64,000 nucleotides of DNA from Magnolia sinica (lineage: Eukaryota > Streptophyta > Magnoliopsida > Magnoliales > Magnoliaceae), in assembly GCF_029962835.1 (NCBI RefSeq), contig NC_080590.1, forward strand, positions 61,440,001-61,504,000, read 5' to 3'. Shown one piece after another: positions 13,070 through 56,191 of the stretch. How positions within the stretch are numbered: the stretch's first letter is position 1; each line of letters starts with the position of its first letter. The notes under the pieces are model-generated. The model was not told where the DNA came from and did no database searches. It saw nothing but the letters and a program-made list of their open reading frames with translations. Made by a program: the position numbers and the translations under genes.

Positions 13070-13435
13070 AATGTGGACATTTAACTAACATTGTCCCCAA
13101 GGAATGGCCCATAAAGAGCCTAACATATAATGGACCCATGGCCTCACACAAGGGCCAAATATACAATACCATGGGCCTCACTTAAGAGCTTAATATACAT
13201 CACGATGGGCCTTTAAAATGGGCCTAACATACATCACAATGGGCTCCATCTCTTGGCCCTCAAATGCACCACAATGGGCCTCATTACATAGGCCTCACAT
13301 ACATTACATAGGCCTCAAATGCTTCAAGGTGATGCTGAATGCTTATCGGAACAGCCTCAAATACGGGCCGAATATACATCACAATGGGCCTCGGCAATTG
13401 GCCTCGATATCCGGCCTCGACAATCTTCCTCGGCA
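13070..13435. repeat. GGGCC-rich array, left block
   Basis: Imperfect units of about 35-45 bp built on 'ATGGGCCTCA...ACATCACA' repeat from a start marked by AATGTGGACAT at 13070. The same units reappear at 14122-14770, with the AATCG array between them. Confidence 0.65.
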
Positions 13436-14090
13436 ATCGGAGTCGGCCTCGATAATCAGAATCGACCTCAATAATCGGAATCGGTAATCGACAATCGGAA
13501 TCGACCTTGACCTCGATAATCGAAATCCATAATTGGCAATTAAAATCAGCCTCGACCCTGATAATCGAAATCGGTAATCGACAATTAGAATAGGCCTCGA
13601 CCTCGATAATCGGAATCGGTAACCGGCAATCAGAATCGGCCTTGACCCTAATAATCGAAATCGGTAATTGACAATCAGAATCGGCCTCGACCCCGATAAT
13701 CAAAATCAGTAATCGGCAATTAGAATCGGCCTCAACCCTCGATAATCGATAATCGATAATCGGCAATCAGAATCGGCCTCGACCCTTGATAATCAAAACC
13801 GATAATCGACAATCAGAATCGGCCTTGACCTCGATAATCGAAATCGATAATCAACAATCGGAATCAGCCTCGACCCCAATAATCAAAATTAGTAATCGAC
13901 AATCAAAATTGGCCTCGACCTCGATAATTAAAATCGGTAATCGACAATCGAAATCGGCCTCGACCCTCGATAATCGAAATCGGTAATCAACAATCGGAAT
14001 CGCTCTCGACCTCGATAATTGAAATCGGTAATCGACAATCAATCGGCCTCGACCTCGATAATTGAAATCGGTAATCGACAATCGGTGGGA
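13436..14090. repeat. Minisatellite of about 46 bp, AATCGG/CCTCGA family, about 13 units
   Basis: Units carry GGCCTCGACC, then GATAATCGAAATCGGTAAT, then CGACAATCGG. GGCCTCGA-type starts recur at roughly 46-bp spacing (about 13540, 13589, 13638, 13681, 13729, 13774, 13818, 13864, 13910, 13958, 14004, 14044). Each unit contains several short copies of the word AATCG. Open frames across it encode only the repeat. Confidence 0.85.
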
Positions 14091-20640: not shown

Positions 20641-20802
20641 ATTCTTCTATACTTGTAGGTTGACTCCCTTATACATTCTGACTAAGGTCTCACAAATGTG
20701 CATTTCCCTTATGCATTGGACATCTAATTACTTTGATTTGAATTATCCAGTGGCAAGCACAAAAAGAGCAGGAAGAGAATGGAACAGACTATGATATAAA
20801 TG
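20641..20802. other. Unclassified flank left of element B
   Basis: Unlike L1 on its left and interrupted by element B on its right. It continues after element B at 39416. It ends in the target duplication AAATG (20798-20802). Confidence 0.5.
20798..20802. repeat. Target-site duplication AAATG, left copy
   Basis: Identical to 39416-39420 immediately beyond the other LTR. Confidence 0.9.
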
Positions 20803-21633
20803 TGTAGACACTGAAAAAGCGGTGCCCATGCTGATTAGTGTTTTTAATATGGGTGATTATGGATGTTGGAGTCACCACTAGCCGAATAATCTCATAATCC
20901 CATAGTCGGCTAGAACTGCATAATACGTAAAGTCAGATAAATCTGAAGACTTCCCTCCTTTAGATTGACTCCTAGTCTGCTATCCAGGATTATGGGTAAG
21001 GGACCTCGGTTACAAAGGGGGAAGGTGTTAGGCACCCTCTCTGCCCATACAAATGTATGGTCTCTACTTTATGTAGTAAAACAATCTCAAGAGATGATGT
21101 ATGTTGTGGTCGAGATGGGACTAGGCACACACGTGGATTTCTGATGTAACAAGATCCGAGACTTCGGCAAGCCACAGAGCATATGTCCAATGGCATGTCT
21201 AGAAGGCAGATGTAATGATGCTTATGTAAAAAGGTAAAGAAGAATGGACTAGATCACTAGGAATTTCTGATGTGACAGGATCCGGTGTACGATAAGTCAC
21301 AGAACATACGTTCACTAGAGATCTAGAGGAGCAGGGGGGTTGAGAAGGAAATAATGTCATGGTGAATGCTTGTATGTAAAATGAATCGATCTTTGGCTTA
21401 ATCTTTGAGTGAGCTAAGGTATGGATTGAATCGTGATCAATCTAGGCTAGATTTATGGATTGGAAAGGTTGAGAGGAAGGCTAGGGGGTGGCTGGAAATT
21501 TCAGATCGCTGAAGGCTTGGGAGCTCCTTCCCTTTCCTTCACTCTCTTCCTCACTCTCTCCCTTTATTTCTCACTTAGCCTTGGAAATGTGAAGTAGCTT
21601 GTTGGGGATGGCTCAAATGAGAAGAGGAGAGGG

Positions 21634-21643
21634 CTATTTATAG
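21634..21643 (-). promoter_or_regulatory. TATA box, left LTR of B
   Basis: CTATAAATAG on the minus strand, conserved at 38826-38835 in the other LTR. Confidence 0.7.
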
Positions 21644-21836
21644 CCTTCTCCAATGGCATTGTTGTAAAATTAGGAAATGGAGGCTTGTAATTGGTTAGGG
21701 GGAGAGGAGTGTCACGTGGCGTGTTCCTATTGGCTTTGGGGGCAGGTAAAATGGTAAATAGTGAAGATGGGGAGGGTAAATACCAGAGAAAGTTGACTTT
21801 TAGATGCTGGGACAGCTGTCCACACGCGAGCCGCAT

Positions 21837-21885
21837 GTGGCGGCACTCTGAGTATCACCAGCGGTAGTCAGACTAACGCCCGGGC
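21837..21885 (+). promoter_or_regulatory. Shared palindromic motif, copy in left LTR
   Basis: GTGGCGGCACTC then CACCAGCGGTAGTCAGAC and CGCCCGGGC. The same module occurs in the right LTR and upstream of both antisense genes. Confidence 0.6.
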
Positions 21886-22205
21886 TCTGTTCGGGTCGGG
21901 TTCGTGCGTGCGGGCTTTGTCTAATGTGCTGGTTTGAATGGTGGCTTCCTTCTGGGGTTTTATGACTCGACCAAGTTGGCTGGGGCTTGGGTAACGGATT
22001 CTAGTCATGGTATAAGGTATAGGCAAGGGCTGTGTGTGGATTGAACGTTTGGATCAAGGTTTTGGGTCTCGGTTTAGAAGTTTTGAGGTTTTTGTGGTAG
22101 GGTTAAGTTTAGGCTAGGATTAGGGTTTAGTTTAAGGTGTGATCATGGTTCCTGGCCAGTCTTAGCCTTTTTCAAAATGTTATCCTTGGTGGGGTGTCTA
22201 CAGAT

Positions 22206-22215
22206 GCCCCTCTTT
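22206..22215 (-). promoter_or_regulatory. Polypurine tract of element B
   Basis: On the minus strand AAAGAGGGGC ends a few bases before the 3' LTR, the expected plus-strand primer position. Confidence 0.65.
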
Positions 22216-23464
22216 GACCGAGGTTGCGAGCAACCGAAGGCCAAAGCAAGTGGACACCCCACCCTTCTGGTCAGAAAGGATAGTGATTCGAATCTGTTGC
22301 CTGCCATTGTATCATTTTCAGTTGACTATTTGGAAAAAGATGACTTGCACATATCACGAGGGTTGAGGAAAATGTTGTGATTATCCCCTGCGCATGTGTC
22401 GTGGCTTTACGGGTCACCAATCACAACCCTTTCACTTTAGATTGTTAATAGCATTGAAGGGTAAGTCTGAAAGGTAGGGCCTCTGCGCGTTGGTGCGGCT
22501 TTACGAGGATTCCTGTACTGTTTGGTCTGTCATGTCCTTTGCTACGTAATCACCCTAGGAGTATTTAGTCAGTTTGATTGTCAAATTAGTTAGCTGCCCT
22601 ACGCATTGGTGAGGCCTTATGGGGAACTCACTACGCCGACTTGGACTCACTCAAAATTTCTGAACATCCCGGACTAGATATGTGCAGGTAATCCTTTGTC
22701 ATGCAGTTTGCTGATTCTGATACTTTGGTTACAATAGATTGTTGTCACTTTGAGTTTCGATTATTCTTCCCAAAGATAAATCCATTCACTTTTACTGGCA
22801 TTTGTACAACTGTCTAGATATAGGGATCGGGCTGGTCATACATGTATCATGTACAGATACGATCATCCTCTGGGGAAACCGAGAGAGATTGAATCTTATT
22901 TAGCTGTTTACACTGACTGCAACTGGAGAATATGGAAGATTCCTCAGTATACTGCGTGTCGCGTGCATTTTTAAAAAAAATTTGTTTAAAAGCTATTCCC
23001 TTTGGACCTAGATTCCTTGGGGATTTTGTTTGAAAATATATTTTTTGGAAAATATCTGTTCGACTTCGCGAGTGGGCATCATCGTCCAGTTTTTATTTGC
23101 TGAAGATTTAGACGGCCTTCACTAATAAATTAATGGGGCTGCTGGTTTTAAAAGGATCATCCTTTCTTTGAGGTTATACTCCCTGGGGATTTACTTTATT
23201 TCTATTTTTATTTATTTATTTATTTATTATTATTTTATTTTATTTTATTTTATTTTGAGATTTTCGATTTCTCGTGAGAATTCGAATTTATCATGAGATT
23301 TTGTGAAGAATCTCTTATTATATATATTTTGCTATGTATATATTTATTTTTTATTTTTTATTTTTTATTTTTTTCTTGGTTTTTATCCACTGGTCCAAAG
23401 GGAGGACCAGTTAATGCAAATGGGCATGGGGGAACGGTACGTTGTCCTAGGAGTCAGGCGGTCG
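22216..23464. other. Non-coding region between 3' LTR and antisense genes
   Basis: No ORF resembles a known protein. It contains repeats of a phrase built on CGCATTGGTG.GGCTTTACG (22480-22500, 22602-22620, with a related one at 22387) and an (ATTT)n stretch at about 23200-23260. I see no further structure. Confidence 0.5.
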
Positions 23465-23504
23465 GTGGCGGCAATCGGATAACCGCCAGCGGTAGTCCGG
23501 CTAT
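23465..23504 (+). promoter_or_regulatory. Shared palindromic motif upstream of antisense gene 1
   Basis: GTGGCGGCAATCGGATA is followed by ACCGCCAGCGGTAGTC. The last 16 bases are identical to those at 39068-39083 in the right LTR. CGGATAACCGC...GCGGTAGTCCG forms a near-perfect dyad. A TTATTTAAAT box follows about 75 bp downstream (about 23572). Confidence 0.6.
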
Positions 23505-24510
23505 AGCCGGTCCGTCAAACGGACCGCTGGTCCATGACGCGCGTCGGTTCATCCGGTGTATCTTCCTCCCTTATTTAAATTCGGCCTTTGGGTCGTCCAG
23601 AGACCCCATTGTGGTCCCTGGAAGATATCTTGAAGGAGTTTTTTGAGATTGTGTTTTCTTGCATTTTCCTTCCCATCTTCAGGTAATTTTGGTCAAGGGG
23701 TTTTTTATGGATCTTGCTGGACCATTCATTTGAAGAGCTCTTAGTGGGTTGGATTTCTCTATGAGCTTTGGGAAGGCTACGATCAGGACCTTTGATCTGC
23801 TTTGATTTGATCCTAACCATTGGATCTTGTTGGATTTCCTATTTTTGTTGGCTAAATTTTCTGTTGTATACATTTTTTTTTTATGGAGTGGGGTGTGATA
23901 AGAAAGGGGCCCCACCCTTTTATTTGAAGATTTTTTTGTTTTTTGTTTTATTATTATTTTTTGGATGATCTGGACCGTTGGATGGATGATCTGGGGCCTA
24001 TTTGAGTGTGTAGATGGTATAGATCTCGTTAGTTGACCACTTTATGGATGATGGATGGATGGGATTTTCCAAGTGGGTCCTACATCATGATCTTGATGTA
24101 TCCAGATGCATGGACTTGTTATGGTGGTGATTTTTGAAATAGACTTTGAAAAATGGGCCCCAATCATGGGCCTTGAAATGAATTTAGACATGGGCTTTGC
24201 AAGTGGTCCTTGAAAGTGGCCCTTTTGGAAGGGGCCTTTGGCCTGGGTCTTTTGATGGGCTTTTTGAAATGGGCCTTTGAAGTGGGCCTTTGAAGTGGGC
24301 TTGGAAGTGGGCCTTTTTTAAATGGGCTTTGACTTTTTTGAAAATGAGCCTTGGAATGGGTCTTTTTAGAAATGGATTTGGAAAATGGGCCTTTTAAAAT
24401 GGGCCTTGACGTTTTTGAAAATGAGCCTTGGAATGGGTCTTTTTGGAAATGGCCTTGGAAAACGGGCCTGGGCCTCAGAATGATCTTTTTGAAATGGGCC
24501 TTTTGACATT
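23505..24510 (+). other. Leader or intron region of antisense gene 1 with GGGCCTTT-type repeats
   Basis: T-rich, non-coding. From about 24130 to 24520 short units like ATGGGCCTTTGAAG recur, including two related blocks at about 24310-24380 and 24390-24465 that share GAAAATGAGCCTTGGAATGG. The run ends in TTTGTGCAG (about 24545-24553), a good 3' splice site just before the coding block, so an upstream non-coding exon is possible. Confidence 0.5.
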
Positions 24511-25310
24511 TTGGTGAGAAGGGCATTTACTTGTGAGCTTTGTTTGTGCAGCATACCTCGTCGTGGTAGGAATGAGACTGGTCCTTCTCGCCAGTCGACT
24601 GATCCGTTCTATCTACCACGAGAAGGTCGACATCTTTCTGATATAGCTCGGGAAGGTGGTGCGCCTACGATTCCTAGAGGGCATGGGGTTAGGACACACT
24701 GGCTTGATTGGTTCCATGATCCGCAGCCTCTGTTCTTTGAGGTGTTGGAGCGTACTCCATTCACGCACTTATTTCGAGTTCGTCTGAGTAAGACAAACAT
24801 GTCCCTTTTATCTGCCTTGACTGAGCAGTGGCACCCTGAGACTCACACCTTCCAGTTGCCTTTTGGGGAGTGGGGGATCACTCCTTATGATATATACATG
24901 CAGCTAGGTCTCCGATATGATGGGGGATCTGTTCCTTTTGAGGATGATCTCCCAGTACCTTCTGAAGATGACTGGATGGAATTATTAGGGATGATGCCAT
25001 ATGCCACAGATTTTCAGGTCATCGATTCAAGCTATTATGGTTGTTGTCGAATTTTGCCAGACGCATTCCTAAAACTAAAGCTGCAGCTGTGGCGAAGGCT
25101 CACGCCCTGATTCTGTATACTATGGGAGCAATGATTTTCTGCCACGGGAATAAGCTTGTGAGTTCTCATCTGTTGTCGCTTGTGGCAGATATCACTTTTT
25201 CCACGCCGTACAACCGGAATGCAGCCCTCCTAGCTCATTTGTACGAAGGGCTGGACAAGGCCAGCCATTGTATCAGCTGATCTTTGACTGACTTTTATCC
25301 AGTCATCGAG

Positions 25311-25391
25311 GTACTTTCTTGATGTCCCTTTTGTATTATTTTCTTTGGGAATGGTCTGGTGTGCCCTTTTCTAATCGCGGCTTTGGCGCAG
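25311..25391 (+). other. Intron 1 of antisense gene 1 (81 nt)
   Basis: GT at 25311, U-rich body, CTAAT branch-like word, GCGCAG at the end. Removing it joins ...FYPVIE to VCFFDHFP in frame. Confidence 0.75.
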
Positions 25392-25553
25392 GTCTGCTTT
25401 TTCGACCATTTTCCCCATTTAACACCTACTCTGATTGATCATTCGCCCCCTTTCCCTCGCATGATGCTATGGTACAAGGATAACCTCAGCCGCATGCGCC
25501 TATTTTTTGATCTTGCATGGAGGTCGAATATCGATGCCCTTGTCCCTAATGAT

Positions 25554-25631
25554 GTGAGTGTTTTGTCTTGCCCTGTATTGCCCATGTGTTGCTTTCTGGC
25601 TATCTGCTGATCCTTTTTCTCCCTTTTACAG
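25554..25631 (+). other. Intron 2 of antisense gene 1 (78 nt)
   Basis: Starts GTGAGTG, has CTGAT near the end, finishes CCCTTTTACAG. Phase 0 on both sides. Confidence 0.85.
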
Positions 25632-26051
25632 TTTCACACCAGGCCATATCTCCAGTCGAATGCAGCGCTTACTCCTGGAGCTTAGGAGGCCTTTCAGGCC
25701 TCATGACGTCGCCGTATTCTGAAGGACCCGCGTGTGACGAAATGGTATCTAGGAGAGACTTTTTTGGCAGCTGACCGACAACCCTTTGGTCCCACTTATC
25801 CGCCATCCGAACCATCTGATTGGAGATCCGTGCCTGATAAGGAGTTGACCACTGCTTTGGAGGGTTTTGAGGCCAGTGCCTTCATCAACCCGGACAAAGA
25901 GTATAGCTCCTGGTGTGAGCAGTACGGCATTTATCTGATCTTACAGCCTGGCTATGCTCCAGGTGGCAGTGCCTGTTTTGCTAGAGGAGGAATCTTGGGA
26001 CCTCATTTTCATCGCAAGGATAGAGATACTTATCTTCCCGATGACGATTAG

Positions 26052-26500
26052 TTCATTGTATCCTGTGACCAGCTGTGTAATCCTCTTGTTTATATGAAAT
26101 TTCAATTGTTCAATGTTGCCTTCTTTGGTATTCTTATGATCATTTTTTTTTTAATCCAACTGAGCACATGGAGGTGCATTACTTAGTCCCATCCCTTTGG
26201 AGTGGGCCCTGTCGGAATTTTGCTCGAAACTAGGCCCGGGCGATAGTCCGACTGCCGCCTGTTGACTTTCGCCCGTTTTGCTTATTCTGTTAGGTGCTGC
26301 AGTGATTCAGTGATGACAATTCCTGCAACGGTACTCCGAATGCCGCTAGCGGTAATCCGATTACCACCTCCGTTCATCTTTTCTTCTAGCAAGCCCTCTT
26401 CTTCTCTGTTCATTCCTTCCTATCCCTTTCTGTTTATTCCTTTTGCCTAGGCCATCCGATCCTTCTCTTTTGCCCCTTTCTCTTTTGTCCCTTCTTTCCC
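26052..26500 (+). promoter_or_regulatory. Spacer between the antisense genes with an inverted motif pair
   Basis: Non-coding. Holds an inverted copy of the element-B motif at 26232-26262 (GCCCGGGCGATAGTCCGACT) and a direct copy at 26326-26360 (ACTCCGAATGCCGC then TAGCGGTAATCCG). A pyrimidine-rich tract follows to about 26530, typical of a plant leader. It probably contains the promoter of antisense gene 2, but no clear TATA box is seen. Confidence 0.55.
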
Positions 26501-26545
26501 TTGTCCTTTTCTTCTTTTGTCTTTTCTTTCCTTTTGGTGGCTATT

Positions 26546-28867
26546 ATGGGTGATCATGATGAGGGGGTTGATGGATTTATTAATGGTGAAGAGATAGGTG
26601 GGCCCATAAATGGTGGAGAAGATTCATTTATGGATGGATTAATGGAGGTTGATGGTGGTGTAATGAGTTCTTTTGGAGAGATCAATGCCATTTATGCAAT
26701 GATCCCTACCACCATTAATGGAGGATATGAGGTTGGGTTGGATGGTTTGGATGGTTTTGATGGGTCCATATCAGATGTACCACCAGGATTTAGAGATGTT
26801 AACATGGTGGGGATGGATGGTGAGGATGGTGAGGATGGCTCGACGATGGCGACTGATGGTTTGATTGATGGAGGGATGGTTATGGGTGGTGTGAATAGTA
26901 GTACGGCGATGATGGATGGTGCGGATGTGGCGGATCAGGCCTGGATGGGTGGCTTGGATATGACAGGTGATGGACTTCTTGTGGATGGCCTGAGTCAGAT
27001 CTTTGGTGCGGATTTCGAGGTAGTAATGGGACAGTCGGCTTCTGTCGGGCTCCAGGGTACAGATCTTGTCAGCTACTGGGATGCACTAGGCGTTGCAGCT
27101 CCCGGGGCTTGTTCATTTCAGACTGCTCCTGAGGTAGCGATCATTGGTGGCTCGGGCCCGTCTGTTGCAGCTTTTTAGAGAACTTTATAGGATGCGATGG
27201 GCGAGGCTGGCTTCTTCCATCATCATGAGATTCGTTTATCTTTGACGATTCGCCTATGGACCCGGGGCTTCAGATTGTAGAGGGAGTGCCTGTTCAGACC
27301 TGCCGTTTACATCCACGCGACACCTGTTCTGAGAGGTTGCATATTTAGTCGAGAGCTTGACCCAGTCGGAGATTTTTGAGTTGAGCTCCTTAGGCTTTCG
27401 AGAGGTTCTTCACTTCCACCGGATTCGCCTAGATTAGCGATTATTGAGCGCAGCTTTGTACGATTGGGTTCCCTCTCTGAATCTGTTTTCCTTCAATGAT
27501 CTGGAGCTGGGCCCATCATTGGAGGAGTTCTCATGTTTGTCTGGGCTTCCCCTGACCCGGGAGCCCTATGTTCCCTCGTCCGAGCCGGTCCGTTCTACTG
27601 ATCTGATTTCCTTGTTCGGATTTCTTACTGCTCTCGCTGCTACGGAGGGTGGGGCCAGTGAGCTTATGCTCGAGGTCCTATACGATCGCTGTTCTACTGT
27701 CCGAGGGGTCCTGGGTTGGATCGCCAGCTCCAGTGCTTGAATGCACTAATATTTTGTGTCTTGGCTGAGTTGCTTTTCTCAGGGTGGAGATAGTCATCAC
27801 TGGTAGTTTTGTTGGATGTCTTCCGTCGTGTCTTGCATCGCAGGAGCATTACTTCTATGGTGTTAGCGGAGCTCTTCTTGGGGCTGACTGAGTGCTCTCT
27901 TGGATATACGCATATCCTCAGGGACAGCTGCTCATTTCTTCAGGTACTCTTTGCTCTGCTCCTTTCTTTTCCTTCATTTTCTGCTTCCAACTTGAGCTTG
28001 ATTTATTCTTCTCCCAAGTGTGGTTATGGGAACACATGTACATGACCCCTATGCTTGTGTGGCCTGATTCCCGCCGTGATGATGTGTTGTCTTTGTTGCT
28101 TGATGGCCTTCCCCTCGGCGTTGAGGCCACTGAGTCGTTGTACCACTGCATGCTCTCTCAGCTTCGAGGGTGGGAGATTAGCTGGGAGGCTACCTGGCTC
28201 TGTCACTCGCCATTGATTTGCAACGTAGCTCGCACTCCTTTGCTGCTGCTAGGTCTTCGGGGATACTGTTCTTACCATCCAGTGCGATTCCTTCGTCAGT
28301 TTGGTTTCTGGCAGGATATTCCGGAGTTCGCCTTCTCTAGATTTGGGCATGCCCCTCTTCCTTCTGATTTGATTGCCTTGTATAGACAAGTCTGGATTTC
28401 CTGGCAAGGCTCTTTGGATGCGACGGCTCTGGATCTCGAGTCTTGGGCCCCTCCTCTGGCAACAGTACCATATCAACGATGGGTGGTAGAGCAGTCACTT
28501 TATCGACAGGTCCCTGGCTGGCATTTGGCAGACGAGGTTGCTGATTAGGACATGGTGAGTGATACTGCTTTATCCTCTTCATGTGTCGTTGACTTGCTTG
28601 AGGCTTTTGAGGAGCGACCCTTCATTGATCCTTCCTTCTTGCTGGCCACACATGGCCACCTGATCAGCGAGATTGTTGTCCTCCGTCATGCATGTGAAGA
28701 CTTGGCCCGTTGGCTGGCAGTGGGGCGTATAGTATGATGAGAGTATGTTCGCGGCGCATCATCTGGACAGAGATGAGATCTTTTACCTGCACATGGAGAT
28801 AGAGAGGCTTAGGCAGAGATTATTGACGTATGAGGGATATGAGTTCTCCTGTGATCCTTGGTTGTGA
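26546..28867 (+). pseudogene. Antisense gene 2 of element B: DUF7745/PMD-like protein
   Basis: A first exon (ATG 26546, open to 27178) encodes a Gly/Asp/Met-rich acidic stretch with MGDHDEGVDGF at its start. After stops a conserved block follows at 27444-27740: ALYDWVPSLNLFSFNDLELG then PSLEEFSCLSGLPL, the N-terminal block of DUF7745/PMD-type plant proteins. Next come VFRRVLHRR...LAELFLG (27809-27943) and, after an intron-like gap 27944-28018 (GTACTC...CCCAAG), WLWEHMYMTPMLVWP, LLLGLRGYCSYHPVRFLRQFG and WISWQGSLDATAL. The C-terminus (28552-28867) is Glu/Leu-rich and coiled-coil-like, ending YEFSCDPWL. The splice phase at 28018 is off by one base as it stands. Stops at 27176, 28546 and 28735 are visible. 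Confidence 0.75.
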
Positions 28868-29906
28868 TTGACTGCTTATTTTGTATACATGCATAGTTTT
28901 GTTTTTGGAACCAAAAGGAAAGAAAAAGCAGTATAAACGTTTCTAAATGAAAGAAACATTTTGTTTTGTGTCAATTCACTGGTGTTTGGATTTGTGCTTT
29001 GGATGATTGGGATCAAAACTTTGGGCTTAGCCCACATTGTGCGCAGTAGTCTAGATCGTGTTCTTAGGGTCTTGGTTCCCTAAGAGGGTCTCCGGGATCG
29101 CATTCCATGAATTTGAACAGAGTTTGGTAGAGTACTAATCTGAGGTTGTTCTTCCCTTGTATCTTGTTGCGGCGCCTGCTACCTTGACTTTTTCTGTACC
29201 TGTACTTTTATTTTATATATATATATATATTTTTTTTTTATTTCCTGCCATTTTACTTGTAATGCCTTTTCAGGTTTTCACTACGTCTGGCTCTTCCCAT
29301 CATTTTTGCTCATAGCGTCCTTTCGGATTTTCACTATGTCCCGAGTTTTTTATCTTGCCTGCCCCTTGGCAACTGTGCTCTTTTTATCCTTGGCTCCCTT
29401 TCAGGTTTTCACCAAGTCCGCTACATGCCTGCTATTGTTACTCGAGCTGCCCTTTCAAATTTTTAACTCGCCCCTTTTGCTTAGACATGTCTTTCTTTCT
29501 TCTTTTTTTTTTTTGTTTTTTGCTTTTTTTTTTTTTGGAGTACCGGGAGTGATGGATGGACTTCCTTCATGGCCGACCAACTGGTTACCTTCCTACCTTT
29601 GTCTTTGAGTACAATTGTAAGCTGCTTTTTGGGTGGATGTGGAATGGACTTCCTCTCTTTCCTTCTTTTTGAGGTTTTCTTCTTTTTTGGAATTTTCTTC
29701 TTTTTGCTTTCTCCATTTTTTTTTATTTTGGTTTTCTCTTTCTTCTTTTTTTTCTCTTTTTTTTTTGGTTCTCTTCTTTTTGTGGGAGAAATGGCAGGTG
29801 TTTCCTGATGGGAGAGGTGGCGGATATATACATATTTTTTGGTTTTTAGTGGGAAATGTGATGGGTGCAGCTTTGCGATTGTAATCATTAACAGGGTCAG
29901 GTATGG
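28868..29906. other. Convergent spacer between antisense gene 2 and pol
   Basis: Non-coding. A pyrimidine-rich block (29470-29780) has long T and CTT runs, and (TA)n lies at about 29215-29230. Both the plus-strand gene and the minus-strand pol would end their transcripts here. Three copies of a phrase like CCTTT.AGGTTTTCAC(T/C)A occur at 29267-29410. Confidence 0.5.
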
Positions 29907-31162
29907 TTACCTATGATAGATTTTCATGTTGTCGGCATTGATGGGCTTAGAAAGATCTTCTCCTTTCAGACTGGTGAGTCGAAGAGCACCTCCCGGGAGT
30001 ACTTGTCGAATAATCAGCGGGCTGTCCCACGAGGGTTTGAATTTTCCTCTAGGATCTGGTAAGTGAGGTGGTCGGATGCGCTTCATGACCATGTCACCCA
30101 CTTTGAAGCTTCTCTTGCGGACCCTCTTGTTGTAAGGTCAGGCGATCCTCCTTTGATAACATTGGGAGTGGCTTAGTGCCCGCATGCGCTTTTCATCCAC
30201 CAGGTGCAGTTGATCATACCTTACTTATTGCCACTCGCCTTCCTCGACTTTACTTTCCAGCAGTATTCACAGTGATGGGATTTCAATTTCGACTAGTAGT
30301 ACCACCTCCATTCCTTAAGTAAGCTCATACAGAGTGGCGCCTGTAGCAGATCGTACAGATGTTCAATAGGCCCAAAGTGCGTAAGGAAGCATTTTCGACC
30401 AATCGCGATATGTTTTCACCATTTTCTCCAGTATGTGGATGATAGTTTTGTTTGCAGCCTCGACCCCACCATTCATTTGAGGACAGTAAGAGCTTGACCG
30501 ATGGCGTTGAATCTTGAACTTGTCGAGGAAATCGCCCATCCTTCTATTGATGAATGGAGTTCCATTGTCAGTGATGATGGCCTGAGGGACCCCTAACGGC
30601 TAATGATGTTGTTCTTTATAAACTTGACCACATGAGATGCTGCGATGGTAGTGTAGGATGCTGCCTCTATCCATTTGGTGAAGTAATCTACTGCCTCTAG
30701 GATATACTCGTGCCCATTTGAAGCTTTCGGGCTGATCTTGACGATGATATCCAGCCCCCATATAGAGAAGGGCCACGGTGCCATCAAGCTGTAGACTTCG
30801 GAAGCAGGTGCACGGATCTCGTTTGCATGCTCTTGACATTTGAAGCATTTCTTGACATGCTTGCAGCAATCTGTCTCCATTGTGAGCCAGTAGTAGCCGA
30901 GTCGTAGGATCTTCTTTGCCATCATATGTCCATTCATGTGTGGGCCGCATAGTCCTTCGTGGATTTCAGACATGATTTGCATTACTTCTGTCTCATCCAC
31001 ATAGCGGAGAAGGACTTGGTTGAAGGATCGCTTTAGAGGATGCCCCCAGTGATCACGAATTGTGCCGCTAACCATTAGATAATGCGACGATCGGTCAGTG
31101 TTGCTCCTTCCTGATACTTCTGATGTTCGAGATATTCTTTGATATCTGTGTACCATAGCCAA
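29907..31162 (-). pseudogene. Integrase of element B
   Basis: Minus strand from 31162: zinc head with IHEGLCGPHMNGHMMAKK and CKHVKKCFKCQEHANE, then the catalytic core WGLDIIVKISPKASNGHEYI...VDYFTKWIEA. A stop follows at about 30591 (NIISR then TAG). Core residues continue as AIITDNGTPF and later NGGVEAANK, so the D, D and E of the catalytic triad are readable. The GDMVMKRIRPPHLPDPRGKF tail and INADNMKIYHR close the polyprotein at 29907. One frameshift separates this frame from the RNase H frame near 31080 and another lies before 30101. Confidence 0.85.
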
Positions 31163-31845
31163 TCATTTAAGGGACATTCAGCTTCATTGATCTGTAGGCA
31201 GAATGCGGGTTCCTCCTGGAGTTCGATGGTGAGTTCCCATTCTGCAACTCCTTTTGGGATCTCCATCATTGAAGCAAGAGTAGCTAGAGCGTCTGCAAAT
31301 TGATTCTTGACTCGGGGCATGTAGGAGAATGTGATTTCGTCGAATTTCTCAATTAAAATTTTCAGGTAGACGTGATATGGGATCAGCTTTTCATCTTTAG
31401 TCTTCCAATCGTCATTTATCTGATTGATGATGAGTTGTGAATCTCCGATGACTTACAACTTTTTTATGTTAAGGATGATGGCTTCTCTTAGACCTGTGAT
31501 GCATGCTTCATATTCAACCATGTTGTTAGTGCATTGGAATGCCAGCCTCTTGGATATGGAAATTGGGACGTCATTGGGAGAGTAGAGTATGACGCCTACT
31601 CCACTTCCCTTCGAATTTGTAGCTCCATCAAAGAAGAGCGTCCACTCTCCGACCTTCCTTTCTTCTTCCTCGATCAGGAGGACGTCGGTCTTCAATGGTT
31701 GATAGTTGGGCAGAGAGTGTGCCGTTAAATGATCGGCCAATGCTTGCCCATTGATTGTCTTCTGGGTGACATAAGTGATGTCGAACTTAGAAAGTAGTAA
31801 CTGCCATTTTGCGATCCTCCCCGTTAATGCTGGCTTTTTGAACAA
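31075..31845 (-). pseudogene. Second RNase H domain of element B
   Basis: Minus frame gives WTLFFDGATNSKGSGVGVIL, CTNNMVEYEACITGL, a stop replacing one codon at about 31452, VIGDSQLIINQI and MPRVKNQFADALATLASM. Motifs FDGA, NNxxEYEA, GDS and the ADALA tail are those of the archaeal-type RNase H that defines Tat elements. The spacer to integrase follows. Confidence 0.85.
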
Positions 31846-32232
31846 TTACTTCAATGGGTCCATGCGAGCGAGTAGAAGGATTGGGTGAACGATCATATAA
31901 TGTCTTAGCCGTTGTGTCACCCATACTAGAGCGGGACACGTTTTCTCTAAGCTAGAGTATTTGGCTTCATAGTTTGTGAATCGTCTACTTAGATAGTAGA
32001 TTGCTTGCTCTTTTCTTCCTGTATCATCGTGTTGGCCAAGATCGCATCTGATTGCTTCTGCTATGACGGAGATATATAGTAGCAATGGCCTACCTGGAGT
32101 AGGTGGCATGAGCACTGGGGGATTCAGCAAGTACTTCTTGATTTTGTCGAAGGCCGCTTGACAGTCTTCATTCCATTCCTTTGGCGAGTTCTTTTGTAGG
32201 AGCTTGAATATGGGCTCGCAGACTGGGGTGAG
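31846..32232 (-). pseudogene. First RNase H domain of element B
   Basis: Minus frame: NPPVLMPPTPGRPLLLYISV, GQHDDTGRKEQAIYYLSRRF, YSSLEKTCPALVW. Same frame as RT; a stop at about 31843 separates it from the KPALTGRIAKWQ segment. Confidence 0.8.
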
Positions 32233-33356
32233 CTATGTGATGAATTGGTTGATATACTGGATCCGGCCGAGGAAGCCCTGAATTTCTTTTTTAGTTTTAG
32301 GCAGTGGCATTTCAATGATTGCCTTGGTCTTGGTTTCATCCAGCTGAATACCATCTTCGCTGACAATGAAGCCTAACAGTTTGCCTCCAGTTGCACCGAA
32401 AACGCATTTTTGTGGGTTGAGACGGAGCTTGAACTTTTCTAGCCTGTCGAAGAGCTTTTTGTGATCCTCAAAGCGTCCTTTGATCGTGCGAGATTTGATG
32501 ATCATGTCGTCCACATAGCCTTCCATTTCCTTATTTATCATGTCATGGAATAAGGCAATCATGGCTCACTGATATGTAGCTCCTGCATTCTTCAGCCCGA
32601 AGGGCATAACCCTGTAGCAGAAAGTTCCCCATGTTGTGATGAAGGAAGTCTTCTTGCAATCTTCGATAGCCATCCTGATCTGATTGTAACCAGAGAATCC
32701 ATCCATAAAGGAGAAGATCTTGTGTCCAGCAGTATTATCCACCAGTGTGTCGATACGGGGTAGAGGGAAATCGTCTTTAGGACTTGCTTTGTTGAGGTCC
32801 CTAAAATCGATGCACATTCTGACTTTCCCATCCTTCTTTGGAACTGGTATGATATTTGCAAGCAATTCCGGGTAGTTGGAGACTACCAAGAATCCCGCAT
32901 TGTATTGCTTGATGACTTCATCCTAAATTTTCAGGGCCCATTCCGGCTTCATTCTTCGCAGCTTCTGCTTGATGGGCCTCATGTCTGGCTTTGTTGGTAA
33001 ATGGTGCACCACTAAGTCTTCATCGAGCCCTGGCATGTCTTCATAAGAGAAAGCAAAGTTGGACAACTTTGGTTTTAGAAACTCCATCATCATCTGCTTG
33101 TGTTCCGGGGAAGTGATCTACCGATGCACACCTCTCTGGGGAGTTCCATTGACCTTAAGTTCACAATTTCGAAATCTTCTGCTACAACATTGGCCTTTGT
33201 TTCGAATTTTTTGAGAGAGTCCTCAAATTCGCGAGCGGTATCATCATTTCCCTCATCCAGGGCTTCATCCAAACCCATGAGCTCGAAGTCCAACTCTAGA
33301 TCAAAATCATATGAGTCGACCTCAAACTCTTGCGTTGTATCTGAGGTATTTGGCAC
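32233..33356 (-). pseudogene. Reverse transcriptase of element B
   Basis: An acidic linker (33356-33090) ends in LPREVCIGRSLP and shifts frame into FAFSYEDMPGLDEDLVVHHL. RT proper follows: IIPVPKKDGKVRMCIDFRDL, GFSGYNQI, CYRVMPFGLKNAGATYQ, a single stop at 32563, then EGYVDDMIIKS with an intact YVDD box, and the thumb LRLNPQKCVFGATGGKLLGF. All catalytic Asp residues are present. The frame is open apart from one or two stops. Confidence 0.9.
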
Positions 33357-33937
33357 AATGATTTTAGAAGGTTTTTCTATTGTTTTTGTATTTTAAAATT
33401 TTTCTAATGTTTTGTGGTTTTGAGGAAAATTTGATTTTTTTTTTTGTATTTTTGGGAATATGTGATGTTTTTGTGTTTTGAAGATTTTTTGATATTTTTG
33501 TGTCGCTAAAGGATCCCGAACAGGACGGTGTTGCGAACCATGATTGATCTTATCCTAGTTCAGGGTATCAACTACTATTTACATTGGTCCTTTTTTTTGA
33601 GACCGACATCCATGGATGGTTCGCAGGTTGATTCGATCATTAGGGGGATGGTTGACCATGGTGGTTCTTTCCCCCTTTTGAACTCATGGTTCTGCTCTGT
33701 CTGTTCCTGTGGGTCACCTGTCCCGATGACCATGATGTCTGCTAGGCTGGGCTTAGAGTCAGAATCTGATTCAACTTCTTCGCCCAGCAATTGAAGTTCT
33801 TCTGGCTCTTCAGGTTCATCTTGCGATGGGATTTTGATGTCCGTCCAGTCAAAGAAATGACACTTCCCTTTATCAATCCAATGGATGGGTTGCTTTTGCC
33901 CCTTATGTCGCTGAGCTAGTGGCGAGGATAGGTCCTC
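33357..33937 (-). other. Linker between protease and RT of element B
   Basis: Low-complexity T/G-rich DNA (33360-33520) and a short acidic frame (33790-33575, LGEEVESDSDSKPS). This is the normal place for the variable acidic linker of Tat polyproteins. No domain is recognised. Confidence 0.45.
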
Positions 33938-35068
33938 TTAATTGTGGGTGGAAACGGGTGTCTCCCTTTTCTTGCCTTTGTCCCTTCCAAGGGGTATTCC
34001 TGGATCTGGGTCCTTTGTGGGTAGATCCTTATCCATGCCCCTAGCCCCATGAGGTGAGTCTAGGGGTTTTGCCCCTGACATCATATATGCTTTTGATGTC
34101 TTGAGGATCTTATCCCACCTTATCGGTGGCCAGATGGACTCTTGATTGGCATGCTCTGAGAGTTTGAGTTGCCGGAGATGATCCTCAAGGGAAGTCATCG
34201 TGTTTCCACAAACTGCCCCAGCCTTAATGAATTTGATGGGTGTGCACCTAAACGTTTGACCCTTTCTTGGCCTTTCAGCTTGATCTTCTGATGTCAGTTG
34301 ATTTCCCAGTCCTCGCCTTTGCACATTACTGCGTGCTGGCTTTACTACCATACCTTTTTCATGGAACTCGGTGCGGCAGTTCAGGATTAATCGTTCAGGA
34401 GGGGGAATGACATATTCAGCAGTGAGAGGGTGTGGGTTGGCGATTGCATTCACATTTTTGAATTCAAAGCTGTGATACGGTATGTCACCCTCTGCATGCT
34501 GCATGTCAATCAATGGGATGTCAGTTTCTGGGATATTGACCGTCACCGGTAGGATGGTTTCTGGCTCGGCCAATACTGTAATGATTTGATTTCCCGAAGG
34601 AAATTTAACCCTTTGATGGAGGGTAGATGGGATGGCTTTAATAGCATGGAGCCATGGCTGCCCCAACAGGAGGTTAAATGAGGCAGGAATGTCAATGACT
34701 TAAAATGTGACAAGGGTCATGTCTGGTCTGATTTGTAGTTCTAGGTCAATTTCTGCCTCAACCTGTCCTCGAGAGTTATTAAAGGCTCTAACCCTCATAG
34801 TGTTGGACCTGAAAGAAGACAGTTCTATCCCTAATCGTTCGGCAGTCCTCAAAGGGCAAACATTTAGGCTTGATCCATTGTCTATGAGTACAAGTGAAAC
34901 TTTGAAATTCTCATAATGGACAACTATATTTAGTGAGCGCCCATGTTTACGACCTTCAGGTGGCAATTCCTCATCAGAGAAAGTTATGGCTCGTGGCGCG
35001 AGGAGTTGTCCGATCATACTTGCCACCATTTCGGGAAGTACATCAGGAGAGATATGGGCATCATTCAA
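33938..35068 (-). pseudogene. Aspartic protease and downstream linker of element B
   Basis: Minus frame from 35068 reads VSLVLIDNGSSLNVCPL, the retropepsin active site with its Asp in place, then LGIELSSF, NSRGQVEAEIDLELQI. A single TAA at 34700 interrupts just before VIDIPASFNLL, and the frame resumes GQPWLHAIKAIPSTLHQRVKF, the usual end of the domain. The long tail to 33938 (HSFEFKNVNAI, YVIPPPERLIL) is typical of Tat pro-RT linkers. Confidence 0.85.
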
Positions 35069-37856
35069 TGGTTTTGCAAAGATTTCTCGATGCGATCGTG
35101 ATGTGCATAGGAGTTCTCAGATGAAAATTTGTGTGGGAATGGATTTGAGTTGTGTTGCTATATCGTAGGCGAGATCGGTTTTCTGGGTGGTTCCCAGCAA
35201 AATTCCTCGGGTTTCCTTTGGGTTTTGATTCTCTCCTGAAATATCTTCCGTTGTTGCCCACTTCAATGCATTCTGGGCAGTGCCACTCTTCCTTCCAGGT
35301 ATATCGTTGGTTCTTGAGGTTAAGGGGTTGTGGCGGGAATCATTTGTGAGAGACTTGGTGATTTCTCTTGAGGTGCTGCCAAGTCTTGGTGACACTTAAC
35401 ATTAGGATTCTCTTCCTCCATTTGTCGTGTGGGAGAGGTCCTCTGGGCATGTGCCAGTTGGTGTGGCATCAGAAATTTTGGGGCTTGAACCGAGGGTGCC
35501 CCATGCAAGGTTAGCGGAGTTAGATCGGGGAGACCTATCGGGAGAACAACAGGTTCAGAATTCGACCTTGGATTTGCCGAATTTAGGGCGGGACATGCCC
35601 CTTGGGGAGTGTGATGTTGAGGATATGACCTGGTGGATGCTGGGGGTGCCCCTTGCAAGACGAGAGGTGGAGTTATTGATGCTGCTTCAAGGAAGACAAG
35701 AGGTTGTGTTGTTGGTGCTGCTTCAAGGAAGACAAGAGTTTGTGTGATTGGTGCTGCTTCAAGGAATACCTGTGGCCCAGGCGATAGCGCCTGTTGGTAT
35801 CCCCTTGTCTAATTTGTTGTATTAGGCATGATTACTTGTATGGAATGATGTGGAGAGGAGTGTATGGGTTGCCCTCCTTCAATATGGTTGACGGTAGAGG
35901 TGCTGGATGTGCTGGGTCCTGCTTAATGCGATGGCAAGGGATTTTGGAGAATGTTAGCCTGAGTTGTATTATTGGCTTGCGGGGTGATCGCAATCTTCTG
36001 GCTTTCGATTAAATCTTGGACCGCATGTTTCAAAGCAAAGCAGTGGTCCGTTAAGTGGCCAGGAGCCTGAAGGTATGCGCAGTATTGATTTTCGTTGTAA
36101 CCGGGCAACAAGGGATTAGGTGGAAGTTATGGTTGGGTGGTGTCAAGAGTTGCTTTTGCATTGGCATTATCAGAACCTAACTGTATGTTTGTGCTAAAGG
36201 GGTGAACTTCCTTCCCAACATTGCTTGCTTATATGGTCCTTGTGCATTTTCCCTGGGTGGTTGTAATTATTATTGAGATGGCTGTCTGATATCCCTGTTG
36301 GGTTTACTGTGGTTAGTACTGCCTATTTGACTGTGGCTGATACTGCCTATCTTGTTGTGGCTCCGGTTGTGGAGCATACTGATTGCCTTAAGTGTTAGCA
36401 ACGATATTATTAACCTCTGTCGTGCACTGTGCAGGCGTAGTGCCATTTCCATTTCCGTATCCAGCGGGTTTCCCCTCGACTTTGTTTCTTCTGATTGTAG
36501 GGGTCTGGTGTGGCCATGGGGAAATGGTTCTGGCTCTGATCCTGGCTTCCACTTGTTCTCTAGCTCGAATGAGCTGGTAGAAATTTACGTATGGATACAA
36601 GATTATATATCCTGAAATGCTGGGATTTGCTTAATATACGATCATGGATATCTACTCCTCGTCATCGATGGGGTTTTTCATTCGGGCCGTCATGGTTCGC
36701 CATCGTCCTACATATGCTAATAAGGATTCGTCACTTTTTTATCTCAAGGCAGCCAGGTCAAATCTTCTCGGAGCCATATTCAGGTTGTATGAGAACCTGT
36801 CAATGAATGCTTGGGAGAGTTTTTCCCAGGTTCTGATTTGATGGCCGTCCAGTGAGGTGTACCAATCTAAAGCGTCACCCTTAAGGGATTTCTGGAAGAG
36901 CCGTATCAAGGCTCCATCATTCCCTGCTATCTCATTGAGTTCCCCACAAAATACTTTTAAGTGTGCTGTAGGGCATTCACTACCATCATACCTTTTAAAT
37001 TTTGATACCTCGAAGTTTGAAGGTACTCGGGCATCTGGGAAGGGACAAAGGCCTTGAATTTGGTGGATGGGTGATCCACTCCTTGCTGTCTCTGAAGCTG
37101 ATTTTGCACCATTTGCAGTTGTTCTCATAATTCCTTCATTTTTGACTTGCCTTGCTGCGGATATCTTGCCCCCTGTTGTAGGGCTTGTGCTGCTTCCTTC
37201 TCATATGGATCGAGGACGAGGGGTTGTTGGAAGGATGGTGGACTTCCGGTGGCGGGAGGTAATTGGAATTGAACGCTGCTCCCTTTCGGAAGAGGGTGTG
37301 ATGTTCGGAAGTGGCTCCCGCCTGGGGTATCTGCCAATTTCGGAATGTTGCTCCCGTTAGGGGGAGTGACTTGGAATCAAAACTGGCCCCCTTCATAGGC
37401 ATCCGCCAGTTCTTGTCTATGGTTCCCATGAGGGAGAACTTGTGTTGTAACCTGATTGTTGTGATGTATTGGGTAGTGATGTGTGGGAGGGTTACTCCCG
37501 ATTGCTGGCTGCTGTTGATCTTGTGCTGACTCTTCTAGGAAAGAGAGTACGGGATTTGCTAGAGGAATGAGGGAGAAGGCAAAAGGGGTTTGAGGGAGTG
37601 AACTGTTTTGTACACTAGGCTGAGTTGCCTGTGTATTTGGTGTGGCATTTGACACTAAGCAAAGTAACAGTTCTTGCACTGCTCGGAGACTATGGGTCAT
37701 CTCTTGCATGGTGGTGTTGGTTTGTGGGTCTGTTGGAGCCACTGGTAGCGACGCGGATGTAGGTGCGGGTGCTGATGTTTCAAGAACTGGCTGAGCTGCC
37801 GGTTCTTCTTCATGGGTAGCTTGAGAGGTCATGGCTGTGCGGGATCGAGTGGTCAT
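35069..37856 (-). pseudogene. gag of element B
   Basis: ATG at 37856 opens a Thr/Ala/Pro/Gln-rich N-terminus (MTTRSRTAMTS). After frame breaks the capsid core is found at 37128-36739: FEVSKFKRYDGSECPTAHL, FQKSLKGDALDWYTSL, IRTWEKLSQAFIDRF, the retrotransposon gag signature. A zinc-knuckle-like motif CAYLQAPGHLTDHCFALKH (CX4-9HX4C type) is at about 36090-35990. Frames change several times, and repeats like CAACCTCTTGTCTTC occur on the minus strand at about 35690-35750. Confidence 0.8.
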
Positions 37857-37987
37857 GGTTCGAATCTATGCCCAAAAAAGTGCAAGCCAAAGATGTTTTT
37901 TTTGTATGAATGTAATGATGATATCCCTTGAGATTAAAATACCACACACTTTCGAGTCGGGTCTCAGCTAATGTGAGCTAGCAAATT

Positions 37988-38004
37988 CCCCAGTGGAGTC
38001 GCCA
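37988..38004 (-). promoter_or_regulatory. Primer binding site of element B
   Basis: Three bases inside the 5' LTR the minus strand reads TGGCGACTCCACTGGGG. TGGCGACTCC-type sites are the tRNA-Arg-complementary PBS reported for Ogre/Tat elements; the tRNA match was not computed here. Confidence 0.75.
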
Positions 38005-38825
38005 TTCTGTAGACACTGAAAAATCGGCACCCACACTGATTAGTATTTTTAATATGGGTGATTATGGATGTTGGAGTTGCCATTGGCCGAATAATCTCAG
38101 AATCCCACAGTCGGCTAGAACTGTAAAATACGTAAAGTCGGAGAAATATGAAGACTTTCCTCCTTTAGATTGACTCCTGGTCTGCTATCCGGGATTATGG
38201 GTAAGGGACCTCGGTTACAAAGAGGGAAGCTGTAATGCATCCTCTCTGCCCGTACAAATATATGGTCTCTACTTAGTTTAGTAAAATCCGAGACTGTGGT
38301 CAAGATGAGACTAGGCACACACGCGGATTTCTGATGTAGTAAGATCCGAGACTTCGGCAAGCCATAGAGCATACGTCCAACGGCGTGTCTAAAAGGCAGA
38401 TGTAATGGTGCTTATGTAAAAAGGTAAAGAAGAATGGACTAAATCACTAGGAATTTCTGATGTGACAGGATCAGGTGTACAACAAGTCACAAAGCATACG
38501 TTCACTAGAGATCTAGAGGAGCAGGGGGGTTGAGAAGGGAATAGAATGTCATGGTGAATGCTTGTATGTAAAATGAATGGATCTTTGGCTTGATCTTTGA
38601 GTGAGCTAAGGTATGGATTGAACCATGATCAATTTAGGCTAGATTTATGGATTGGAAAGGTTGAGAGGAAGGCTAGGGGGTGGCTGAAATTTTCGGATCG
38701 TTGAAGGCTTGGGAGCTCCTTCCCTTTCCTTCACTCTCTTCCTCACTCTCTCCCTTTCTTTCTCACTTAGCCTTGGAAATGTGAAGTGGCTTGTTAGGGA
38801 TGGCTCAAATGAGAAGAGGAGAGGA

Positions 38826-38835
38826 CTATTTATAG
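38826..38835 (-). promoter_or_regulatory. TATA box of element B 5' LTR
   Basis: CTATAAATAG on the minus strand. It would start the genomic RNA at roughly 38795. Confidence 0.75.
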
Positions 38836-39050
38836 CCTTCTTCAATGGCATTGTTGTAAATAGGGGGTAGGTAAGGGTTAAAATTAGGAAATGGAGGCTT
38901 GTGATTGGGTAGGGGGAGAGGAGTGCCACGTGTCGCGTTCCCATTGGCTTTGAGGGCCGGTAAAATGGTAAATAGTGAAGATAGGGAGGGTAAATACCAG
39001 AGAAAGTTGACTTTTAGATGCTAGGACAGGTGTCCACATGCGAGCCGCAG

Positions 39051-39098
39051 GTGGCGGCACTCCGATTACCGCCAGCGGTAGTCAGACATCGCCCGGGC
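39051..39098 (+). promoter_or_regulatory. Shared palindromic motif, copy in right LTR
   Basis: GTGGCGGCACTCCGATT, ACCGCCAGCGGTAGTC, AGACATCGCCCGGGC. Best-preserved copy of the module found in both LTRs and before both antisense genes. Confidence 0.65.
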
Positions 39099-39415
39099 TT
39101 TGTTTGGGTCGGGTTTGCACGTGCGGGCTTTGTCTAATGTGTTGGTTCGAATGGTGGCTTCCTTATGGGGTTTTATGACTCGGCCAGGTTGGCTGGGTCT
39201 TAGGTAACGGGTTCTAGTCATAGTATGAGGTATAGGTGGGGGCTCTGTGTGGATTGAACATTTAGATCAAGGTTTTGGGTCTCGGTTTGGAAGTTTTGAG
39301 GTTTTTGTGGTAGGGTTAAGTTTAGGCTAGGATTAGGGTTTGGTTCAAGGTGTGATCATGGTTCCTGGCCTGTCTTAGCCTTTTTCAAGATGTTATCCTG
39401 AGTGGGGTGTCTAAA

Positions 39416-39420
39416 AAATG
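39416..39420. repeat. Target-site duplication AAATG, right copy
   Basis: Matches 20798-20802. Confidence 0.9.
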
Positions 39421-43883: not shown

Positions 43884-44625
43884 ACACATATCTATCTCTT
43901 AAGCCTTTTTTTTTTTTTTTTTTTTTAAAAAAAATCTCTTTTTTCATACTTTCCATTGGTAACCAGAATTTATATTGGAGTGAGTGAGAACCACATCAAA
44001 AGGGGCGACCTCTTGCAAAGAGGGTCATCTTTTTAGCAAGAGTTGCGGCAATTACATGAGCTTCACTAAAAGTCCAGAAAAACAAAAACACTTAACCTCC
44101 ATAATAATGGTATGTGCTGGAGTATGTCATGCTTTTATGAACTATAATAATTATATGATAATATTTCAATATTATCATTCAAGTGACATAGGATCCTACA
44201 TGGTTTTGTAACGAGTTGTGTCTCTGTCCCACACCCAAAGAAAGTATGCATGTGTAAGATACACATATCCATCTCTTAAGCCTTTTTTTTTTTTTTTTTA
44301 AATCTCTTTTTTCATACTTTCCATTGGTAACCAGAATTTATATTGGAGTGAGTGAGAACCACATCAAAAGGGGAGACCTCTTGCAAAGAGGGTCATCTTT
44401 TTAGCAAGAGTTGCAGCAAATACATGAGCTTCACTAAAAGTTCAGAAAACAAAAACACTTAACCTCCATAATAATGGTATGTGCTGGAGTATGTCGTGCT
44501 TTTATGAACTATAATAATTATATGATAATATTTCAATATTATCATTCAAGTGACATAGGATCCTACATGGTTTTGTAACGAGTTGTGTCTCTGTCCCACA
44601 CCCAAAGAAAGTATGCATGTGTAAG
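43884..44625. repeat. Tandem duplication, about 370 bp, two copies
   Basis: Copies at 43884-44260 and 44261-44625 begin ACACATAT(C/T)(T/C)ATCTCTTAAGCC and end GTATGCATGTGTAAG. They differ at few bases; the length difference comes mainly from a poly(T) tract (longer in copy 1). The high similarity suggests a fairly recent event. Confidence 0.95.
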
Positions 44626-56121: not shown

Positions 56122-56191
56122 TTTTTGAACAGCCAGAAATGGCTTAATGGAATTTATGTCTCTGGACCATAACCCTCTAGCCACCATAGCT

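Follow-up and report, generated by a model that had tools for sequence, protein, structure and literature searches.

How can a gene with introns be kept by an element that multiplies through an RNA copy? This question is raised by a 64-kb stretch of Magnolia sinica contig NC_080590.1 (the window, to which all positions refer), in which an old Tat/Ogre-type Ty3/gypsy element occupies 20803-39415 with its pol strand minus, read from right to left. Between pol and the 3' long terminal repeat (LTR), opposite to pol, lies a plant mobile domain (PMD) gene, gene 1, in three exons on the plus strand at 24553-26051. An earlier interpretation based on the letters of the window (the sequence-only reading) had proposed such a gene, with introns at 25311-25391 and 25554-25631. 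Both coordinates were right, both introns have GT...AG ends, Pfam PMD was matched in exon 1, and the anatomy of the element bore out the antisense position. We hold it very probable that gene 1 is a spliced, selected accessory protein gene encoded by the element itself.

Structure of gene 1 and its introns

24553-25310, plus strand: exon 1 (PMD); start codon ATA here, one stop and one frameshift in the window copy
25311-25391, plus strand: intron 1, phase 0, GT/AG ends; NCBI models P0003, P0005, P0008 and P0009 join exons here
25392-25553, plus strand: exon 2, from the copy alignment and the ratio of nonsynonymous to synonymous substitutions (dN/dS)
25554-25631, plus strand: intron 2, phase 0, GT/AG ends; NCBI models P0008 and P0009 join exons here
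25632-26051, plus strand: exon 3 with TAG stop; two internal stops and two frameshifts in the window copy

The exon 1 piece of the window matched PF10536 with 42.8 bits (curated cut-off 34.9). Pfam PMD was found in one frame at 24553-25107 (E 4.9e-11) and in a second frame at 25041-25277 (E 1.1e-4, alone below the cut-off), and exon 1 of the window copy is therefore frameshifted. The gene does not start at 24511, as had been supposed: the start codon position is 24553, which reads ATG in 27 of 30 copies and ATA in the window, and 24511-24551 resembles the 3' end of a leader intron. With three in-frame stops and three frame-breaking insertions or deletions (indels) in its exons, the window copy is dead. 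The earlier reading was silent on this, on the leader intron and on a second gene.

A DNA search of the same genome with gene 1 gave 355 candidates, of which 40 were scored. Apart from one partial match, these (39 of 40, counting the window copy) are 1505-1585 bases long with 77-100% identity, and no intronless copy, expected at about 1382 bases, was found among these 40 scored matches of 355 candidates. This fits the earlier idea that introns in reverse orientation survive the RNA stage. Thirty genomic copies (L009-L038, L009 being the window copy) were aligned. As foreseen, the introns were conserved rather than missing in these relatives, with both splice-site dinucleotides kept in at least 27 of the 30: GT is present throughout in both introns, and AG in 28 copies for intron 1 and 27 for intron 2. 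Counting the exon columns that are occupied in over half of the copies gives 759, 162 and 420, each divisible by three, so both introns are in phase 0, again as proposed.

The two stretches could in principle be degenerate in-frame segments of, or insertions in, a continuous open reading frame (ORF) that is never spliced, a reading to which we give almost no credence. It draws on the window lengths of 81 and 78, both divisible by three, on intron 2, where 8 of 30 copies are open and stops in the PMD frame are scarce (0.63% of codons), and on the fact that the introns are known here from DNA sequence alone. Over the 30 copies, however, intron lengths vary (70-81 and 78-85) and are divisible by three in only 8 (intron 1) and 13 (intron 2), while no copy has intron 1 open in frame. 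The indel density (per kb and copy) is 0.61, 1.03 and 1.35 in the three exons versus 14.35 and 10.57 in the introns, so that indels are about 8-24 times rarer in exons. The GT and AG ends are kept, coding constraint is found on both sides, and gene 2, described below, has an intron at a homologous position.

A protein search yielded 87 proteins from 7997 scored candidates, 'MAIN-LIKE 1-like' being among the names that NCBI gives. Nine were close and all are Magnolia sinica NCBI models (P0001-P0009); among the remainder, identity does not exceed 36% in those that cover over half of the query. The protein sequences of the nine were compared by eye for their exon junctions. P0008 and P0009 join exons at both introns and P0003 and P0005 at intron 1, P0005 continuing without splicing of intron 2 at the gene 1 site. 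P0007 connects exon 1 directly with exon 3, P0004 turns to other sequence once exon 1 is complete, P0006 departs from exon 1 by skipping, and P0001 and P0002 terminate inside it.

Transcription of gene 1 would run against pol, with a probable start at an upstream promoter of the gene's own, and removal of the leader intron and the two coding introns would give the mRNA of a PMD protein. In the genomic, pol-sense RNA the same introns lie backwards; they would persist because they are not recognised there and are copied by reverse transcription. The locus would thus offer a clean natural case of strand-specific introns, removable from the mRNA of the gene and permanent in the genomic RNA of the element. 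A similar argument has been made for Penelope elements dispersing intron-containing genes, where introns on an antisense template are held to go unrecognised by splicing and so to be retained (argued in PMC3846280); these belong to another element class, and what they move, in trans, are genes of the host instead of a conserved gene of the element. Plant LTR elements are generally without introns according to a 2025 review, which gives Ogre and EVADE as exceptions (PMC12786077); by our reading the introns of both lie in the sense transcript.

Selection on gene 1

The dN/dS was calculated with the Nei-Gojobori method (NG86), exon by exon and with codons containing gaps or stops removed, for 435 pairs from the 30 copies. 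Medians were 0.094 for dN, 0.624 for dS, 0.250 for the intron distance and 0.153 for dN/dS (range 0.08-0.73), and two shifted-frame controls gave dN/dS of 1.02 and 1.18. The ratio below one that the sequence-only reading had called for was thus obtained, rather than a neutral one, and the comparison of internal and terminal branches agrees. We assume that dS is inflated by transitions; with the introns as reference the median ratio of gene 1 is 0.38. For the seven closest pairs (dS <0.15) the median dN/dS is 0.635.

Changes were mapped on the tree of the copies. Per site, codon positions 1, 2, 3 and introns have 0.302, 0.177, 1.333 and 0.925 changes on internal branches and 1.515, 1.369, 2.029 and 1.671 on terminal branches. 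For transversions only, the same series reads 0.031, 0.009, 0.204 and 0.087 internally and 0.311, 0.213, 0.329 and 0.317 terminally. Positions 1 and 2 against position 3, internal against terminal, give a Fisher probability of 2.8e-17, with the reservation that full independence cannot be assumed for changes on a single tree. The pattern is the same in columns free of CpG, and position 2 remains somewhat low on terminal branches too. Most of the tree length is terminal (2.12 versus 0.59 internal), which makes a mere split into shared and singleton changes unsafe; this split alone was rejected as proof of selection, as recurring changes at hypermutable cytosines can look shared. The signal held after branch mapping, with transversions only and in CpG-free columns. 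Gene 1 is a protein gene that was under selection while the family spread, and decay after insertion was near-neutral; each of the 30 aligned copies carries at least one stop or gap in its exons.

In every one of the three exons, no other of the six frames has as few stop codons as the PMD frame. Coding on the minus strand was considered as the source of the constraint; in every exon, each of the three minus frames has more stops than the plus-strand PMD frame. The antisense RNA itself might matter, with the coding appearance a relic, and control of the element through double-stranded RNA has been proposed for antisense transcripts of LTR elements (PMC7264820). Given purifying selection at the codon level on internal branches, the median dN/dS of 0.15 and the distribution of stops over the six frames, we consider this highly improbable.

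The host element and a second PMD-type gene

20798-20802: left target-site duplication AAATG, a flank match to 39416-39420
20803-22202, minus strand: 3' LTR, direct repeat with 38008-39415; starts TGTAGACAC, ends TGTCTACA
30366-31162, minus strand: integrase H2C2 and core, in pieces (Pfam)
31078-31845, minus strand: second RNase H (dual RNase H); RVT_3 E 2.3e-5 and 5e-10
31849-32232, minus strand: first RNase H; RT_RNaseH_2 E 3.8e-22
32236-32922, minus strand: reverse transcriptase, two pieces; E 3.1e-15 and 2.3e-7
36742-37200, minus strand: gag piece (Retrotrans_gag); Pfam E 1.1e-6
37988-38004, minus strand: primer binding site complementary to tRNA-Arg(ACG); plus-strand sequence CCCCAGTGGAGTCGCCA
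38008-39415, minus strand: 5' LTR; terminal CA reads AA
39416-39420: right target-site duplication AAATG

The minus-strand order of reverse transcriptase, RNase H, RNase H and integrase between paired LTRs, with the AAATG duplication, is that of a Ty3/gypsy element; the flanks pair up if the right LTR is taken to end in AA instead of CA. A dual RNase H is named as a Tat feature and a tRNA-Arg primer site as an Ogre feature in PMC9289625, and both are present. The tRNA 3'-end pattern ending CCCCAGTGGAGTCG occurs at four genomic places, and both of the two retrieved are tRNA-Arg(acg) genes. From domain order, dual RNase H and primer site the element is assigned to the Tat lineage and is Ogre-like, whether Ogre itself or another Tat lineage. 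The LTRs are 91.6% identical over 1384 aligned sites (gaps excluded), a Kimura two-parameter (K2P) distance of 0.090. With 4e-9 changes per site per year, our own division of the published 1.2e-7 per generation of 30 years (PMC10999834), insertion dates to about 11 million years ago; a rate of 1.5e-9, chosen by us, gives about 30 million years.

Gene 1 is adjoined on the same strand by a second gene of the PMD superfamily with an intron of its own, gene 2, at about 27150-28870.

27150-27943, plus strand: upstream coding part (DUF7745/PMD superfamily), start uncertain; DUF7745 E 1.4e-3, below the Pfam cut-off
27944-28017, plus strand: intron, homologous in position to intron 1 of gene 1; ends AA, not AG, in the window copy
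28018-28870, plus strand: downstream coding part (PMD C-terminal part); PMD E 9.3e-5, below the Pfam cut-off

A search of the same genome with gene 2 gave 40 scored matches of 377 candidates; a protein search with a piece of gene 2 gave no match at E 0.001. Codon periodicity was observed over gene 2 in 12 sequences (the window and 11 copies, the incomplete L045 excluded), with a change of phase at the intron. GT is kept in all 12 and AG in 10, being lost in the window copy and in L048. The intron position (LQ^VW) was found by eye, through alignment with PMD relatives, to be homologous to intron 1 of gene 1 (VIE^VC). Just 5' of gene 2, a plus-strand ORF rich in Gly, Asp and Met (26546-27175, MGDHDEGVDGF...) has no Pfam match and weak periodicity; it may belong to gene 2 as its N-terminal part or stand by itself.

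Twelve copies were inspected over 10 kb. All have gene 2, L045 only in part, and in all of them genes 1 and 2 lie on the same strand (one in part); an LTR was found in 10 and the end of pol, in opposite orientation, also in 10. Three copies of gene 1 lie within 0.4 Mb (G000:C9:28146656, 28371951 and 28498539) with gene 2 copies adjoining, possibly through later segmental duplications.

The sequence-only reading called the gene captured, for which we found no support. Recent capture of a host PMD gene together with its introns has in its favour that host PMD genes exist and that the introns look host-like. On the other side, there are two antisense PMD-type genes with a common intron position, the copies have a median dS of 0.62, and gene 1 is in all 12 copies viewed over 10 kb. 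Moreover, PMD clades A1 and A2 are described as encoded only by Gypsy elements across angiosperms in PMC5418596, where Ikeda and colleagues (2017) lean to domestication by the host and leave the question open. Of the PMD profile matches listed for the genome, 57 of 120 end at profile positions 185-197 (around 189). A widespread shared intron was considered for this cluster and rejected, since 12 such loci continue across this site with no intron; the intron is therefore common to genes 1 and 2 of the element and not to those loci. This comparison covers sampled PMD loci, no search having been aimed at host PMD genes with these introns. Eight loci (L001-L008) belong to other PMD families and show no nucleotide match to gene 1. 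Recent capture thus appears very unlikely, and an accessory gene of the element, not a host gene caught in passing, is the best explanation.

Antisense ORFs (aORFs) in Tat elements are already known (PMC7264820, PMC11963269). Gene 1 resembles aORF-3R (Grande gene23, RIRE2, Silene Retand) in its place between pol and the 3' LTR, opposite to gag-pol, and in its conservation among copies. It shares the PMD with extra ORFs of Ogre, in 57% of whose elements the domain is reported (PMC6317226). It differs from both in its two coding introns, probable leader intron and selection on exons, and the magnolia element differs in the adjoining second intron-bearing PMD-type gene and in a motif array in the leader. 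The main texts of PMC7264820 and PMC11963269 do not contain the word 'intron'. Among LTR elements of animals, HBZ of HTLV-1 is reportedly spliced. It is likewise an antisense accessory gene, named as such in PMC11963269, but encodes an unrelated protein of an animal retrovirus. Among the titles and abstract openings surveyed (partial result lists and few subscription papers), no report was found that describes an antisense PMD gene with splicing in an LTR element, nor one that links the PMD and VANC folds.

Predicted fold, leader array and possible function

23566-23640, plus strand: promoter-like block with TATTTGAA-type element and inverted repeat CCAGGGAC/GTCCCTGG; limits approximate, putative function
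About 23683-24551, plus strand: predicted leader (5' untranslated) intron, CAG^GTAAT ... TGTGCAG^, ending 1 nt before the start codon
24167-24502, plus strand: ten TGGGC[C/T]TT sites in a single orientation, in tandem repeats within the leader intron

P0008 matches Pfam PMD with 119 bits and no other Pfam domain; in particular DUF1985 and DUF287, the domains of VANC21, were not found in it. DUF1985 was matched weakly, below the cut-off (E 0.041), in P0031, a distant PMD relative. Models predicted for the PMD protein of this family match the fold of the DNA-bound part of VANC, at 8% identity in the structural alignment, and the nearest solved protein in fold is the anti-silencing protein VANC21 (9lnj). 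Sequence searches of the PDB gave nothing useful.

The leader probably consists of a promoter, a short non-coding exon and the leader intron. A block like 23566-23640 was located and aligned in 26 of 30 copies, and the inverted repeat CCAGGGAC..CATTGTG..GTCCCTGG in the putative promoter is kept in most of these. The donor pattern is present in 27 of 30 copies, which gives a leader intron of about 0.75-1.2 kb. Its GT (CAGGTAAT or close variants) is kept in 25 of the 26 aligned copies, and the AG of the TTTGTGCAG-type acceptor just 5' of the start codon in 29 of 30.

All ten TGGGC[CT]TT matches of the window element lie at 24167-24495, with no others in 20803-39415 and none on the opposite strand. 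Leader regions of 860 bases from the 30 copies contain 413 matches on the plus strand (7-30 per copy) and none on the minus strand, for a total of 13.1 +/- 3.6 expected under a first-order Markov model; the motif was chosen after the fact from the commonest 8-mers of the same leader sequences. The first 760 bases after the start contain one match in all copies together. Over 10 kb, 142 of the 148 plus-strand matches of the 12 copies fall in the leader, and two occur on the minus strand. We rejected the idea that the array is the DOWN motif (CATGCAGTTT in the MORC1 promoter) of genes that depend on MAIN/MAIL1. TGGGCY is a TCP-type site, which we take to be a live alternative for the array.

VANC21 of the Arabidopsis MULE VANDAL21 is described as recognising a short motif that is densely repeated in a single orientation, in many cases within tandem repeats and also in introns of its own gene, upon which the family loses methylation (PMC5735166, PMC10398659). 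The array is likewise dense and of one orientation in non-coding DNA of the element and is a candidate binding site, but the motifs differ (YAGTATTAY versus TGGGCYTT), VANDAL21 is a DNA transposon and not an LTR element, and anti-silencing is proven for VANC21 and proposed for gene 1. Since gene 1 has the predicted VANC fold and an array of this kind in its own intron, self-recognition of the VANC type is favoured. The PMD protein would most likely be nuclear and bind DNA sequence-specifically; it may bind the TGGGCYTT array in its own leader intron, and thus in every copy of the family, and in this way counter silencing or otherwise control the chromatin of the element. Anti-silencing by the gene 1 protein is put forward tentatively, at rather less than an even chance. 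With a predicted fold like that of an anti-silencing protein bound to DNA, and with a specific candidate site, the proposal lends itself to a direct test in vitro.

Alternatively, the gene may be real and selected while its protein is a transcription regulator or a self-limiting repressor, roles put forward for Grande gene23 and for antisense accessory proteins of retroviruses, or acts in favour of silencing as MAIN and MAIL1 do, the array being a TCP-bound enhancer or a mere tandem repeat; this is a serious contender, only a little short of even. Nuclear localisation and an own promoter are reported for Grande gene23 (PMC7264820), and mutants of MAIN and MAIL1 release silencing (PMC5418596, PMC9899485). 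The array also sits 3' of a conserved promoter-like block. Against a regulator or repressor stand the nearest solved fold, which is that of an anti-silencing protein, and the VANC-target features of the array: tandem, in one orientation, in the gene's own intron and variable in copy number. We also infer that a protein repressing its own element would be hard to keep under selection within it. MAIN and MAIL1 (clade PMD-C) share PF10536 and a role in transposon silencing (PMC5418596, PMC7156037, PMC9899485) but are genic and promote silencing, whereas gene 1 is encoded by the element, and Gypsy PMDs are placed in clades A1 and A2 (PMC5418596). More generally, and with the same reserve as for gene 1, PMD-carrying LTR retrotransposons might encode a VANC-type, sequence-specific anti-silencing system composed of a spliced antisense gene selected for its protein, a VANC fold and an array of one-orientation sites in the gene's own leader intron. 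On that view the PMD as a whole would share with VANC a DNA-binding fold tied to transposons, which elements turn against silencing and which hosts, through MAIN/MAIL1, employ to promote it.

Elsewhere in the window, a second LTR element was observed at 55427-61853, with repeats near 55.4-56.1 and 61.2-61.9 kb and plus-strand ORFs that by eye resemble Ty1/copia pol. An array of 45-bp tandem repeats (13284-14012) overlaps a minus-strand ORF of 160 amino acids (aa). A minus-strand ORF of 161 aa at 51310-51795, for which Pfam gave no match at E 0.01, is possibly a host gene. A tandem duplication of about 367 bp lies at 43915-44633, its pieces 94-98% identical.
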